From the NCBI GenBank assembly GCA_026707325.1, contig JAPOXA010000075.1, positions 62,001 to 126,000 on the forward strand: 64,000 nucleotides of DNA. The letters run 5' to 3'. The stretch is from Acidobacteriota bacterium (GTDB lineage: Bacteria; Acidobacteriota; Thermoanaerobaculia; Multivoradales; Multivoraceae). The notes beneath the pieces were generated by a model, which was not told the origin of the DNA, ran no database searches, and saw only the letters and a program-made list of their open reading frames with translations. Made by a program: the position numbers and the translations under genes. Positions within the stretch are counted from its first letter, which is position 1. Every line of letters starts with the position of its first letter. Shown in pieces: positions 20,645-26,574 of the stretch.

Positions 20645-21889
20645 TCAGCCGGCTACCGGCATGGCCGCGGCGAGATTCCTCAGTGCAAGTTCCACGGTGT
20701 CGACCGCCAGCAGGTACTCGTTCAGATCCAGGTGCTCTTCGGGTGTGTGGTCGAGTGTACTGTCCCCCGGGCCGTAGGCAAGGATGGGACAGCGCCAGAC
20801 CGGCCAGACGATGTTCATGTCGCAGGTGCCGGTCTTGACGACGAACTTCGGCGCGACGTCCGGAGCCCCGACCGCGCGGATGGCGGCGAGGAACGCGCGG
20901 ACCAGGGGCGAGTGCCGGTCGGCCCGGACCCCGACTTCGTAGCCGCGCAGGCTGAGCTCCAGGCCGGCGTGCCCCTGCTCGCAGCGGATCGTGCCGGTGG
21001 CGCGCTCCGGGTCGAGGTCCGAGAACAGCGGCCCGTCGATGTCCGCCGCCGCGCCGCCGAACCAGTTCGTCAGTTCGTCGACCAGCGCGGAGACGACGAA
21101 ATCGACGGGGAGCCTCAGCCCGTAGTCGGCGCGCACGGTGTCGTAGAGACCGTCGCTGGTCGTCCCGATCGAGCGCAGGCTGGGCAGTACCCGCTCGAAC
21201 GGTGTCCGGCCGCCGTGGCGCTCGGCCACCTGCTCCAGGCGCCGCCAGAGATCGAACGCGGTGATGCCGACGCCGACCTCCGGGCCGGCGGTGTGGCTGC
21301 TCGGCCGCCGGGCCATCAGGTCGATCAGCAGGCGTCCCTTGTAGCCGAGGGTCACCCGGTGCCAGTGGCTGGGTTCGCCGATGATGCAGAAGTCGGGCGC
21401 GGGTTCGTCGCGGCCGTTCAGCCGCTTCAGCAGGAAGTGGGCGCCGCGGGAACTCGCCGCCTCCTCTTCCGTCGCGCCGGCGACGATCACCCGCAGGTCG
21501 TGGGCGCGGGCCCAGTCTCCGCCGAGCCGGGCCGCCGCCGCCACGAAGCTGGCGAGCGGTCCCTTCGCGTCGACCGAACCCCGGCCATGCAGGATGCCGT
21601 GAGGCGATCCGTCGTCCTCGATCCGGACCGGGATGTTCCCCGGCACCGTGTCGATGTGCCCGAGCAGGACGACCAGATGGGAGGCCGTGGGATCGCCCAG
21701 TTCGCCGACGGCGTTCAGCGCGCCGTCGACGTGGCAGCGTTCGAGGCCGCGCGCGGCCATCTGTTCGGCCAGCCAGCCGCTGGCGGCCGCCTCGTGCCGG
21801 GACAGCGACGGCACCGCGACGAGTCCCCGTACCAGTTCGATCTCGGCGCGGTGGCGGCCGGCGTCGATAGCCCCGGTGTCCACGGTCAT
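20645..21889 (-). CDS. lysK: M20-family amino-group carrier hydrolase (LysK-type)
   Basis: Metallopeptidase-fold enzyme. In this context it should cleave the final product (lysine or ornithine) from the LysW carrier. The M20 metal site is recognisable: '[13 protein letters not shown]' (His/Asp), '[14 protein letters not shown]' (bridging Asp), '[13 protein letters not shown]' (catalytic Glu pair) and later '[11 protein letters not shown]'. Length is 414 residues, a little longer than typical LysK proteins. The start ATG overlaps the lysJ stop (ATGA). Taken alone it could be called ArgE/DapE-like; the operon decides the assignment. Confidence 0.85.
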
Positions 21890-23115
21890 TCTCCTCCGAG
21901 CACGGCCTGAATCGCTTCGGCGCCGCGTTCGAGTTCCTCTTCGGTGACGGTCAGCGGCGGCAGCAGGCGGATCACGTTCGGACCAGCGGGCAGGGCCAGG
22001 ATCCGGTGTTCCGTAGCGAGGCGGGCGATGTGGCGTCCCGCGCGTTCACGCAGGACGACACCGATCATCAGGCCGCGTCCCCGGACTTCCCGAACCCGCG
22101 GGTTCGAGGCGAACCGGCTCCTGAGGGAACCGGCGAAACGTCCGCCCATCGCCGCCGCCCTCTCGGGCAGATCGAGACGTCGGAGCGTCTCGACCACGGC
22201 CAGGCCGGCCGCGCAGGCGAGCGGGTTGCCGCCGTAGGTCGAGCCGTGGCTGCCGGGGCGGAGCGCCTCGGCGACCCGGCCGCCGTAGGCGATGGCTCCG
22301 AGCGGGAAGCCGCTGCCGATGCCCTTCGCCATCGCCATCAGGTCGGGCTCGAGTCCGGGCGTGTGCTGATGGGCGAACCAGTTGCCGCAACGGCCGAAAC
22401 CCGTTTGCACCTCGTCGAGAATGAGCAGGGCGCCGTGCCGGTCGCAGGCGCGGCGCGCGGCCAGGAGGAGATCGTCGCCGAGCACGTTGACGCCGCCTTC
22501 GCCCTGCACGGGTTCGAGGACGACCGCGGCCGTCTCTTCAGAGACCGCCTGCTCGATCGCCTCGGCCTCCGGCTGAACGAAGACGGCGTCGTGGAGCAGG
22601 CCGTCGTAGGGCCTGCGGGCCGCGGGGTTCCAGGTCATCGCCAGTGCGCCCAGGGTGCGGCCGTGGAAACTGCTCCGGAGCGCGACCGACTGGCTTCTTC
22701 CCGTGACCAGCGCCGCGAACTTGAGGGCGCCCTCGACGGCCTCCGTGCCGCTGTTGCACAGGAACACGCGGTCGAGCGTTGCGGGCAGGACGGCGGCCAG
22801 CGCCTCGACGTACTCGGCCCGGACGGCGCTCGACACGTTGAGCGGGCAGAAGGTGAGCCGATCCGCCTGGCGCTTGATGGCGTCGACGATCGCCGGGTGG
22901 TTGTAGCCCAGGCAGCAGACGCCGTAGCCCGCGGTCAGATCCAGGTAGCGGTCGCCGTTCTCCGCGATCAGCTCGCAGCCCTCGCCGCGAACGATCGGCG
23001 GAATGGGCCGGCGCGGCGCCCAGGTTCCGAGGCGGCGGTCTTCGACACTGGCTGCGCCGGCCGTGGCGTGGGCCTTCCGGCCCGCGTTTCCGGCATCCGT
23101 TGCGGTGGAGTTCAT
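21886..23115 (-). CDS. lysJ: LysW-semialdehyde aminotransferase (LysJ/ArgD family)
   Basis: Class III PLP aminotransferase, acetylornithine-aminotransferase branch, that would aminate the carrier-bound semialdehyde using glutamate. Motifs are '[17 protein letters not shown]', '[15 protein letters not shown]', '[13 protein letters not shown]', '[13 protein letters not shown]' and the PLP lysine in '[15 protein letters not shown]'. The track ORF extends to 24033, but those extra 305 codons are antisense or out-of-frame sequence across lysZ. I start at the ATG that overlaps the lysZ stop (ATGA), which gives 409 residues, the normal size. Confidence 0.92.
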
Positions 23116-24014
23116 CGCGGTTCCTCCTGCCCGTTCGCCGGCCTGACGACGATGTGAGTACCCGCGCCGTCGAGGGCCGCCTTCACGGGCCGTTCGACCC
23201 GGCCGTCGGCGAAGATGACCCGGTCGAGTCCGCCGCGGAGGGCCTCGGCGGCGCCGAGCACCTTCTTCTTCATCCGGTCTTCCGCTGCGGCCGCCAGAGG
23301 TTCGAGCCCGGAGTCGGGAGCGGCCCCCGAGAGCGCGTGGCGGCCGACTTCGAAGCGGCGAATCAGCGAGTCTTCGTCGGGGAAGTCGGCGAGCAGTCCC
23401 GCGGCGCCCGAGAGATAGACCAGGGTTGGGGCGCCCAGGGCAGAAGCGACCGCGGCGGCGGCGCGGTCGCCGTCCACGTTCACGGCTTCGCCGTCGAAAG
23501 AGGCGCCCGGGGGCGTCAGGACCGGCAGGTAGCCGCCGTCGAGCAGCAGGCGCAGAAGTTCTCCGTTCACCTTCTCGACGGTGCCGGTCCAGTCGTCGCG
23601 CAGCACCATTCGGCGGCCGCCGTGCCGGATGCGCAGCCTGTCCTTGCGGCGCCCCTCGAACAGCCGGCCGTCGAGTCCGGACAGCCCGACTGCTGGAATG
23701 CCCTGGCGCTGCAGAAGCTCGACCCAGCGCTTGTTCAGCAGGCCGCAGTAGACCATCTCGAAGATCTCGAGCGTGCGGCGGTCCGTCCGGCGGCTGCTGT
23801 AACCGCTCTCGCCGGTCACGAACTGCGGCGGGTGTCCCAACTGCTCGGCGACCTCGTTCGTCGTCTCGGCGCCGCCGTGAACCAGGACGACGAGCCGGCC
23901 GGCTCGCCACAGGGATCCGACGTCGGCGGCGATGGCCTCCACGTCGAGCGCCTTGCCGCCGCCGGCCTTGATCACGAGCGGCTCGCCGCTGGCGTTCGGA
24001 GTGGGATCGGACAT
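23112..24014 (-). CDS. lysZ: LysW-aminoadipate/glutamate kinase (LysZ, amino-acid kinase family)
   Basis: Phosphorylates the side-chain carboxylate of the carrier-bound substrate, like N-acetylglutamate kinase (ArgB). Motifs are 'VIKAGGGKALD' near the N-terminus (Lys plus Gly loop), 'VVLVHGGAETTNEVAEQLG', 'FVTGESGYSSRRTDRRTLEIFEMVYCG' (the arginine-rich LysZ signature in place of ArgB's) and 'NVDGDRAAAAVASALGA'. Length is 300 residues. It is preceded by a 113-base spacer with two hairpins, the largest gap inside the operon. Confidence 0.9.
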   Translation of the reverse strand: MSDPTPNASGEPLVIKAGGGKALDVEAIAADVGSLWRAGRLVVLVHGGAETTNEVAEQLGHPPQFVTGESGYSSRRTDRRTLEIFEMVYCGLLNKRWVELLQRQGIPAVGLSGLDGRLFEGRRKDRLRIRHGGRRMVLRDDWTGTVEKVNGELLRLLLDGGYLPVLTPPGASFDGEAVNVDGDRAAAAVASALGAPTLVYLSGAAGLLADFPDEDSLIRRFEVGRHALSGAAPDSGLEPLAAAAEDRMKKKVLGAAEALRGGLDRVIFADGRVERPVKAALDGAGTHIVVRPANGQEEPR

Positions 24015-24028
24015 GGGCTTCTAGCGCC

Positions 24029-24129
24029 GCCAAACCTGGCGCAAGCGCCGTGTTTGGCCCCAGCCCCCACCTCTCCAGGAGCTTGCGCCTCGTAACTCAC
24101 TGCGTTGCGTTTCCACGGCGCAAGCTCCT
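24029..24129. repeat. Two palindromic elements between lysY and lysZ
   Basis: Bases 24029-24058 form a stem GCCAAAC..GGCGC-AA-GCGCC..GTTTGGC with one mismatched and one wobble pair in the middle. Bases 24077-24089 (AGGAGCTTGCGCC) and 24117-24129 (GGCGCAAGCTCCT) form a perfect 13-base inverted repeat with a 27-base loop, and the outer arm runs into the lysY stop codon. The motif GGCGCAAGC occurs in both elements. They fill nearly all of the only sizeable gap in the operon. Possible roles are partial termination, RNA processing or a REP-like dispersed repeat. Only the symmetry is seen. Confidence 0.6.
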
Positions 24130-25210
24130 AGACGGGGTGAAGGCCGAGGAAGTCGAGGCCCCGGGTTTCTTCGTACCCGCACATCAGGTTGGCGCACTGG
24201 ACCGCGTTGCCGGCCGCCCCCTTCATCAGGTTGTCGACGGCGCAGATGACGACCAGGCGCCCTGTCTTCGGATCCAGGTCGAAACCGACCTCGGCGTGAT
24301 TGCTGCCGGCGAGGATCTTCGGCTCGGGATAGCGATGGATGCCGCGGCGGTCCTTGACCAGGCGCACGAAGGGATGCTGCCGGCAGAAGGAACGGTAGGT
24401 TCGGAAGAGTTCCCGTTCGGCGACTCTTTTGTCCGTCGCGTCGGCAAGGAAGATGTGGCTGGTCGCGAGAACGCCACGCACCATCTCGACCGCCGTTACC
24501 GAGAGGTGGACGTTGCCGGCGACGTCGACGCCGCGGCCGGCGAACGCCTGCTCGACCTCGGCGGTATGCCGGTGGCCCGTCGGCCGGAAGCTGCGAACGA
24601 CACCCGACCGCTCCGGGTGGTGGGAGGCATCCGACGACGACGCGCCGCCTTCGCTGCTGCCGACTTTCAGCTCGGTGACGACGCCCCGGCTCCAGTCGAC
24701 GAGATCGTTCTCCACGGGTCCAGGTTCGAGCAGTGGAAGCAGACCGAGCAGGGTCGCGGTTGCGTTGCATCCGACACCGCTCGCGAGGTCGGCGCCGGCC
24801 ACTGCCTCGCGGTCCAGCTCGGGCAGGCCGTACACGAAGCGGTCGAGCCACTCCGGCGCGACATGGGGATCGCCGTACCAGTCCTCCCATGCTTCGGCCG
24901 AACGAAGCCGGAAGTCGGCCGAGAGATCGACGACCTTCGGTGCGAGTTCGGAGTAGAGGTCGATGTCCCTGGCCGCGTTGCCGTGCGGCAGGCAGAGGAA
25001 GAGCAGGTCGCAGCGCTCGAGTTCGTCCACGGTGGAGAAGCGCAGATCGGTGTGACCGCGCAGGTTCGGGTGGGTGAAGTGCACGAAGGAGCCGGCGAGC
25101 CGGCGTGACGTGACCTGCGCGACCTCGAACTCGGGATGGCCGAGCAGCAGCCGCAGCAACTCGCCGCCGGCGTAGCCCGATCCGCCGACGATCGATGCGC
25201 CGACAGTCAC
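24128..25210 (-). CDS. lysY: LysW-aminoadipyl/glutamyl-phosphate reductase (LysY, ArgC family)
   Basis: NADPH-dependent reduction of the carrier-bound acyl phosphate to the semialdehyde. The N-terminal Rossmann loop is '[22 protein letters not shown]'. The catalytic cysteine sits in '[14 protein letters not shown]', the LysY form of ArgC's 'PGCYPT'. '[19 protein letters not shown]' and '[14 protein letters not shown]' are conserved substrate/NADP elements. At 360 residues it is normal. Its start overlaps the lysX stop by 4 bases. Confidence 0.92.
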
Positions 25211-26112
25211 GGAACCTCCGACACCTGGGCCTCCGGTGCCTGGGCCTCGTCCCAGCCAACGGAGGCCACCCGTTCGACGAAGTCGATCATGCGCGCGGGG
25301 ATGTCGACGCCGGTCGGTGCGATCGAGTTGCGGAACTCCATCGTGTGGTTGACTTCCAGCACCAGCAGACCGCGGTCGCGGTCCTCCACCAGGTCGACGG
25401 CCAGCAGGCCCCCGCCGACGGCGCGCGCTGCCCGCCGGCAGAGGTCGTCGATCTCGGGCGTCACCGGGCAGTTCTCCGTGGATGCGCCGCGCGCCGTGTT
25501 GGTGATCCAGTGCGGCGCCCGGCGGTAGATCGCGCAGAGGGTGCGGCCGCCGGCCACGAAGGCGCGGATGTCACGCTCCGGCTTGTCGACGTAGCGTTGC
25601 AGGTAGAAGATCGAGTGCTGGTAGGAGCCGAGCGTGCTCTTGTGCTCGAGCAGCGCCTCGGCGGCGTCCCGGTCATTGATGCGCGCGATCAGGCGGCCCC
25701 AGGATCCGACGGTTGGTTTCATGACGACCGGGTAACCGAGTTCCTCGACCGCGAGCAGGGCCGCCTCGGGCGTCGAGGCCACCCGGGTGTCGGGCGTCGG
25801 CACTGCGGCCGCCTGGAGCAGGCTCGACGTGCGGACCTTGTCGCCGCAATTCTCGATCACGCGGGCGGGGTTGACGGTGGGCATGCCGCGGTCGGCGAGG
25901 ACGCGCAGGTTGGCCAGGGCCCGGCTGTAGCTGAGCGAGCGGTCGAAGACGACATCGAAGTCGAAGGACGGCTCGAGTGCGCTGCTGCCGCCGAGCGCGA
26001 GGACGACCCTTCGGTCGTCGATCAGCTCGACGTCGGCCGCCCGCCGCTCGAGCTCGGCAAACAGCAGCTTCTCTTCGGGCCGGACCCGGCTGTAGAGGAC
26101 TCCGATGCGCAT
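25207..26112 (-). CDS. lysX: LysW-substrate ligase (LysX, ATP-grasp)
   Basis: ATP-grasp ligase that joins the amino group of alpha-aminoadipate (or glutamate in the ArgX variant) to the C-terminal glutamate of LysW. Visible features are the N-terminal '[17 protein letters not shown]', '[16 protein letters not shown]', '[18 protein letters not shown]' and '[23 protein letters not shown]', all hallmarks of the LysX/RimK branch. Length is 301 residues. I cannot settle aminoadipate versus glutamate from motifs alone, so whether the pathway makes lysine or arginine stays open. It follows lysW by 10 bases. Confidence 0.92.
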
Positions 26113-26122
26113 TTCGGCTCCG

Positions 26123-26308
26123 CTACTCGCCCCAGTCCTCTTCCTCTTCCGGCGCGAGCTCCAGGGCGACGGGGTCGAGCTCGATCACTTCGAGGTCGAC
26201 GCCGCAGCCGGCGCACTGGACGATCTCGTGCTGCATGACCGCCTTGAGGCACACGACCTCGAAGCACTCGGGGCACTCGCTGTCGGCGTCGACGGTCTGG
26301 AGTTCCAT
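26123..26308 (-). CDS. lysW: Amino-group carrier protein LysW
   Basis: Small acidic carrier protein to which intermediates are attached during lysine/arginine synthesis. Its C-terminus ends 'EEEEDWGE', the diagnostic EDWGE tail whose final glutamate is the attachment site. Four cysteines in CPEC and CAGC pairs make the expected zinc ribbon. The track ORF starts 23 codons earlier. I use the ATG at 26308, with GAGGAG in the leader, which gives 61 residues and matches the normal 54-60. It is the first structural gene of the operon. Confidence 0.94.
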
Positions 26309-26360
26309 TGCGATGTCTCCTCGGCTTTTGGTTTGCGCTACCAGAAACGCGTGTTTCAAC

Positions 26361-26398
26361 AAAAGAGGCCGGCTCATCCCTCTGGATGGCCGGCCTCT
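26361..26398 (-). terminator. Intrinsic terminator (probable attenuator) upstream of lysW
   Basis: On the minus strand AGAGGCCGGC and GCCGGCCTCT form a perfect 10-base stem. It continues as CATCC/GGATG after a one-base bulge, has a 4-base loop, and is followed directly by TTTTGTTG. This is a textbook intrinsic terminator. It lies about 53 bases before the lysW start and after a short leader ORF, so it may regulate the operon rather than end the upstream one. Confidence 0.8.
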
Positions 26399-26427
26399 AG
26401 GAGAAGATGCGTTCTCGATCTACCAGG

Positions 26428-26517
26428 TCACCCAGGATCGTGTCCCGGACGCTTCGCGCCGCGGCGCTGGCCCTTGGCGGAGAGTGCGGTCGAGGCGGAG
26501 GTGAGGAGGACGAGCAT
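26428..26517 (-). CDS. Putative 29-residue leader peptide of the lysW operon
   Basis: A short ATG-initiated frame, too small for the ORF track, sits between a TTGACA promoter and the pre-lysW terminator. Its middle is basic: Ala-Lys-Gly-Gln-Arg-Arg-Gly-Ala-Lys-Arg, giving two lysine and three arginine codons within ten. Such codons would be a sensible sensor for an operon that makes lysine or arginine. No strong ribosome site precedes the ATG and I did not find a clear antiterminator pairing, so translation is inferred. Confidence 0.4.
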   Translation of the reverse strand: MLVLLTSASTALSAKGQRRGAKRPGHDPG

Positions 26518-26545
26518 CTTGCGTGTCGGCTTTGAACGGGCGCAG

Positions 26546-26574
26546 AGGCTAAGGAATCGTTGCCGTACTGTCAA
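26546..26574 (-). promoter_or_regulatory. Probable sigma-70-type promoter for the lysW leader
   Basis: A perfect -35 box TTGACA overlaps the rhodanese stop codon and is separated by 17 bases from TAGCCT (a weaker -10). Transcription would start near base 26538, about 20 bases before the leader ORF. Confidence 0.5.

Follow-up and report, generated by a model that had tools for sequence, protein, structure and literature searches.

A putative lysine-sensing transcription attenuator upstream of the lysW operon in an uncultured genus of Acidobacteriota

Analysis of a window of 64,000 nucleotides (the whole stretch of DNA considered here) from the genome of an Acidobacteriota bacterium revealed a promoter, a short leader open reading frame (ORF) with lysine codons and a strong terminator directly upstream of lysW. 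As judged from the sequence and its conservation, the lysWXYZJK operon is very probably controlled by ribosome-mediated transcription attenuation, with charged tRNA-Lys as the signal. The original prediction of an amino-acid attenuator on the LysW operon is supported by conservation of the leader frame, by an alternative RNA pairing and by independence of the unit from the neighboring MOSC-rhodanese gene. Matches to Pfam and NCBIfam profiles identified lysW, lysX, lysZ and partner genes, which form one operon:

26123..26308, minus strand: lysW, amino-group carrier protein (PF21344, 5.9e-15; TIGR01206, above cut-off)
25207..26112, minus strand: lysX (TIGR02144, 2.2e-98)
24128..25210, minus strand: lysY, argC-like reductase (TIGR01850, 7e-100)
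23112..24014, minus strand: lysZ, LysW-aminoadipate kinase (NF010659, 2e-113)
21886..23100, minus strand: lysJ, aminotransferase, start approximate (NF042418 LysJ_Th_th, 1.4e-119, below the model cut-off)
20645..21889, minus strand: probable lysK, M20-type deacylase ORF (from the ORF and its position)

The region upstream of lysW contains the following elements, given in the order of transcription:

26569..26574, minus strand: -35 hexamer TTGACA, overlapping the rhodanese stop codon (sequence)
26546..26551, minus strand: -10 hexamer TAGCCT, a poor fit to the consensus (relatives have TAGCCT or TACCCT)
26428..26517, minus strand: putative leader ORF of 29 codons plus TGA, MLVLLTSASTALSAKGQRRGAKRPGHDPG
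26473..26475, minus strand: first invariant Lys codon, AAG (invariant in all tabulated loci, with variable neighbors)
26449..26454, minus strand: invariant Lys-Arg codon pair AAG-CGY, at which stalling is predicted (codon conservation)
26440..26448, minus strand: region 1, CCGGGACAC, pairing with GTGACCTGG in the predicted fold (protector hairpin overlapping the stop codon)
26422..26438, minus strand: region 2, ATCCTGGGTGACCTGGT, 5' strand of the antiterminator, overlapping the leader stop (fold identical in 20/20 loci)
26401..26416, minus strand: helper hairpin GAGAA/TTCTC within the antiterminator (two pairs changed on both sides in the sister genus, L022)
26376..26394, minus strand: region 3, GCCGGCCATCC...GGGAT, 5' arm and loop of the terminator and 3' strand of the antiterminator (fold)
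26364..26398, minus strand: terminator hairpin, AGAGGCCGGCCATCCAGAGGGATGAGCCGGCCTCT (regions 3:4), -29.5 kcal/mol
26357..26363, minus strand: T tract TTTGTTG directly 3' of the hairpin (sequence)

The anatomy of the unit agrees with the original prediction in everything that the latter described, which did not include the -10 hexamer. The TTGACA hexamer is separated by 17 nt from TAGCCT, which matches the -10 consensus at 3/6 positions only, and because of this the promoter was not listed by a generic scanner; generic promoter and terminator scans of the lysW upstream region returned nothing. The leader ORF runs from an ATG at 26517 to a TGA at 26428 and harbors the two Lys and three Arg codons described before, with the only two Lys codons spaced by seven codons; no Shine-Dalgarno sequence is evident 5' of its ATG. 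The terminator hairpin begins 29 nt past the leader stop and, with the TTTGTTG that follows it, lies 53 nt before the lysW ATG (26308), as had been claimed for a strong terminator with a T-run. At -29.5 kcal/mol, it is much more stable than shuffled sequences (-12.0 ± 2.5 kcal/mol; 0/1000 equally stable), and it was missed by the simple terminator scan probably because of a bulge in its stem.

A fold that excludes the terminator, proposed at the outset as a check, was found in all of the 20 lysW leaders, in which AUCCUGGGUG..CC.GGU folds with GCCGG.CAUCC..GGAU, i.e., with the 5' arm and loop of the terminator. The pairing segment is the stretch that, by prediction, a ribosome stalled at the second Lys codon would leave exposed. 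As the leader stop codon falls within region 2, a ribosome that completes the peptide would occlude this region, and CCGGGACAC is able to pair with region 2 in the fold predicted in the absence of translation; the inner pairs of this protector hairpin are not kept in every locus. While the pairing is thus present throughout and shared with a second operon (see below), energy and covariation gave no support for it in the lysW leaders of the genus. The antiterminator energy was not lower than that of shuffled upstream sequence, a result explained by the terminator arm folding on itself, and the contiguous antiterminator helix of the lysW leader on its own was not significant when its complementarity was compared with shuffles. 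A covariation test on the lysW alignment of the genus gave no support for the antiterminator because nearly everything is conserved. The whole-leader fold of the lysW leader had an uninformative z-score of -0.81.

For comparison we used 21 genomes of the uncultured genus to which the source genome belongs (Acidobacteriota, class Thermoanaerobaculia); 'Candidatus Multivorans thiocomprendens' is among its named relatives. In 20 of the 21 genomes, lysW is preceded by promoter, leader frame and terminator together, and the promoter has the form TTGACA-N17-TA[GC]CCT in 20/20 of these loci. In the remaining genome (G010, locus L003), rhodanese gene, promoter and element are all absent before lysW. 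Mean identity is 90% in the core, defined as the Lys-Arg codons through the terminator, compared with 76% at third codon positions of lysW and 39% in the spacer between terminator and lysW. Both AAG codons are invariant: the codons flanking the first one vary (GCC/GCG/GGC/CGC/CTC before, GGN/GAC/GTC/ACG after), and the second one sits in an invariant GCG AAG CGY. Among the Arg codons, of which there are three, invariance is confined to the CGT that follows the second Lys codon; the other two are not conserved. Hence, of the conservation initially asked for, the frame (kept in 20/21 genomes) and both Lys codons were found, and the Arg codons for the most part were not. Two loci (L015 and L017) have a gene other than rhodanese upstream, yet promoter, leader and terminator are kept; here 461-484 nt separate the promoter from lysW, and the leaders start at TTG or further upstream. 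Short TCGTTGTCGGACGGGC-like tandem repeats are located between promoter and leader at both loci and may encode an extended leader N terminus.

Furthermore, a second Lys-rich leader (..LVKRLHKPGAKPWLQDW..) with a related terminator was found upstream of the homocitrate synthase (hcs) operon. In the source genome, this attenuator-like unit (L196 and L211, contig C111) lies outside the window and precedes hcs-lysT-lysU-hicdh; its leader reads MNYTTHSSSLVKRLHKPGAKPWLQDWVSTA up to the stop codon (C-terminal part ..SLVKRLHKPGAKPWLQDWVSTA) and is followed by GCCGGCCATCCAGTTCAAGGGTGCGCCGGC. We searched 149 genomes of the class for the shared-terminator pattern GCCGGYCATCCAGN{1,6}GRTGNGCCGGC, using the reversed pattern as a control. 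The pattern yielded 40 exact sites in 22 of the 149 genomes, with at most two per genome, and all 40 precede lysW or hcs as judged by position; the reversed pattern yielded zero sites in the same genomes. The Lys leader is retained in 16/20 hcs loci, and the hcs leaders keep Lys, with no invariant Arg codon. In G010, G011, G012 and G013 (L198, L199, L205 and L209), the hcs locus has lost its leader, and its terminator lies 7 nt past the stop of the preceding gene; G010 is thus without the lysW element as well as without the hcs leader.

The hcs leader can form an antiterminator helix of 10 bp between GGACUGGGUG and CAUCCAGUUC in the terminator loop (p 0.014 for L196), which is interrupted in three hcs leaders (L197, L203 and L204). 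Its lysW counterpart is AUCC-UGGGUG:CAUCCA..GGAU, and the heptamer CTGGGTG of region 2 is common to lysW and hcs leaders. The two helices have UGGGUG:CAUCCA in common, and their extensions differ on both strands, as expected for a pairing that is kept.

From the anatomy and conservation of the unit, its restriction to two lysine operons and the complementarity and spacing of its parts, we infer translation, stalling, termination and a lysine response, which would proceed as follows. RNA polymerase would start at the TTGACA/TASCCT promoter, and a ribosome would translate the leader peptide. With plentiful lysine, the ribosome would reach the TGA and cover region 2 (GGGTGACCTGGT), so that the terminator (regions 3:4) could form and transcription would end before lysW. 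With lysine in short supply, the ribosome would stall at the second AAG and cover region 1 (CCGGGAC), leaving region 2 free to pair with the terminator 5' arm and loop and allowing read-through into lysW. Without translation, the 1:2 hairpin would form, giving termination by default. The unlinked second copy, with its own leader peptide, would control hcs-lysT-lysU-hicdh; with attenuator copies on both operons, both halves of the aminoadipate pathway would answer to one signal.

We considered whether the hairpin merely terminates the MOSC-rhodanese transcript while lysW uses a promoter downstream of it, since TTGACA coincides with the end of the rhodanese gene, which is the next gene upstream and has the same orientation. 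This is extremely improbable: the spacer between hairpin and lysW, with its mean identity of 39%, contains no shared promoter, and the same terminator motif precedes hcs besides lysW and nothing else among the 149 class genomes. We rejected it because the unit is retained at the two loci where the rhodanese gene is absent, which shows that it belongs to lysW rather than to the rhodanese gene. The stretch between leader stop and terminator, outside the ORF, is also strongly conserved at the nucleotide level, which could instead point to a metabolite-binding riboswitch, such as the lysine riboswitch, or to another RNA-binding regulator, with the ORF being incidental. However, other codons vary around a retained frame, stop position and set of Lys codons, and the same logic recurs in the hcs leader with a different sequence. 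The window gave no match to the covariance model of the lysine riboswitch (RF00168), the lysW leader matched none of the Rfam leader families, and searches of Rfam gave no match at the gathering score and a single chance-level match under relaxed settings; we regard a riboswitch or RNA-binding regulator as very improbable.

A response to both lysine and arginine through the AAG-CGY dipeptide, as part of a dual-use LysW system, was suggested by the original prediction and is consistent with the invariance of this codon pair across 20 lysW leaders and with the leader of the sister genus (L022), which is rich in both Lys and Arg (KRAAKRATKRRRHR). However, ArgJ is present in 21/21 genomes of the genus and LysA scores above cut-off in only one, which indicates that the LysW route of the genus makes lysine, not arginine. 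Arginine thus appears to come via another route (ArgJ), and lysine via the LysW pathway. A homocitrate synthase match was found in all 21 genomes (above cut-off in 20), as was DapF; diaminopimelate presumably still serves the cell wall. The sole LysA (G017:C1:18971-20179, L156) may stem from contamination or from recent acquisition. Lys alone is kept without exception in both leaders of the genus, the second operon with the same switch (hcs) is a lysine-only operon, and the leaders of other lineages are dominated by Lys, e.g., SKKKIEKKKAEKKIKPD in L023. In the sister genus, the lysW leader ends in ..AKRELTSKRAAKRATKRRRHRSG before its stop codon, and in another family of the order it ends in ..SKKKIEKKKAEKKIKPDPGERLFV; both are followed by a strong terminator. 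Thus, of the proposed control by lysine or arginine, the lysine part stands on the two invariant codons, while ArgJ in 21/21 genomes and the variability of most Arg codons speak against the arginine part. A lysine-only pathway in the genus argues against dual use of LysW there, and together with LysA in 1/21 genomes and the Lys-only conservation of the hcs leader, ArgJ in all genomes led us to reject this as the main role. Joint sensing of lysine and arginine is therefore unlikely, and a weak secondary response to arginine starvation could occur at the invariant AAG-CGY as a side effect of stalling on the CGY codon.

To look beyond the genus, lysW upstream windows were scanned for a Lys-rich leader with a terminator 18-36 nt past its stop. 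Such an arrangement was present in 14 of 78 windows outside the genus, compared with 1 of 1474 control windows drawn from the same loci (Fisher p 3e-18). Most of these matches are from Chloroflexota (Anaerolineae, Caldilineales), and one is from Neomarinimicrobiota. Over 24 leaders, complementarity between leader and terminator loop exceeds that of shuffles (Fisher p 1.5e-9, an approximate value as related sequences are included). Fifteen leaders, among them 4 related hcs leaders, gave p below 0.1, and in these the distance from a Lys codon to the start of the pairing segment is 8-18 nt (mean 13.6, sd 3.0). A ribosome stalled on the Lys codon would have its front edge at approximately this distance. 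There are two layouts: in the first (KKPD..SG followed by the stop codon), the pairing segment lies near the stop codon, and in the second (KRAKK..LPDW..), it lies further upstream. We consider it rather likely that LysW operons in Acidobacteriota, Chloroflexota and at least one genome of Neomarinimicrobiota are controlled by a class of lysine leader attenuators that is widespread and has apparently not been described before, with two layouts and an occasional tandem arrangement.

Tandem arrangements were seen in four Chloroflexota loci (L097, L111, L114 and L135), in which two Lys-rich leaders, each with a terminator, precede lysW; the first type often ends with KSKKPSLA[CW].DG. Another Acidobacteriota genome (L150) has two more terminators upstream of lysW, located after the short ORFs MNALACQLAAKGTKPQADLLSGPWPVS and LTTGRFMQRTFSEFFKSGAKPAPDTSLVGRALP. 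LysW is patchy in the class (4/70 genera). Outside Acidobacteriota, the named LysW proteins closest to it belong to Caldilineaceae (Chloroflexota), a pattern suggestive of horizontal transfer.

Leader-peptide attenuation has reportedly been described for the lysine (aminoadipate) gene cluster of Thermus thermophilus. By description only, the unit presented here resembles that lysine leader in the LysW/aminoadipate pathway it precedes and in its short leader peptide and terminator. It differs in its phylum and in the division of the genes between two operons, lysWXYZJK and hcs-lysT-lysU-hicdh, which carry one related attenuator each. With the trp, his, thr and leu attenuators of Proteobacteria it shares a putative leader ORF with regulatory codons, predicted 1:2, 2:3 and 3:4 pairings, a stop codon inside region 2 and a terminator with a T tract; unlike in those leaders, the sensor codons are Lys and are fewer (two in the lysW leader). 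As with the lysine riboswitch (L box), lysine genes would be controlled by transcription termination, but here regulation would depend on a leader peptide being translated. Within the literature that was searched, nothing relevant to attenuation of LysW operons came up. The attenuation logic is textbook; new are this member, its hcs copy and the wide recurrence before lysW.

The proposed attenuator would provide a feedback-control mechanism for the LysW lysine pathway in mostly uncultured lineages, in which regulation has hardly been studied. In addition, Lys-rich leaders before lysW in distant phyla may serve as a simple sequence test of whether a LysW operon is devoted to lysine or to arginine.
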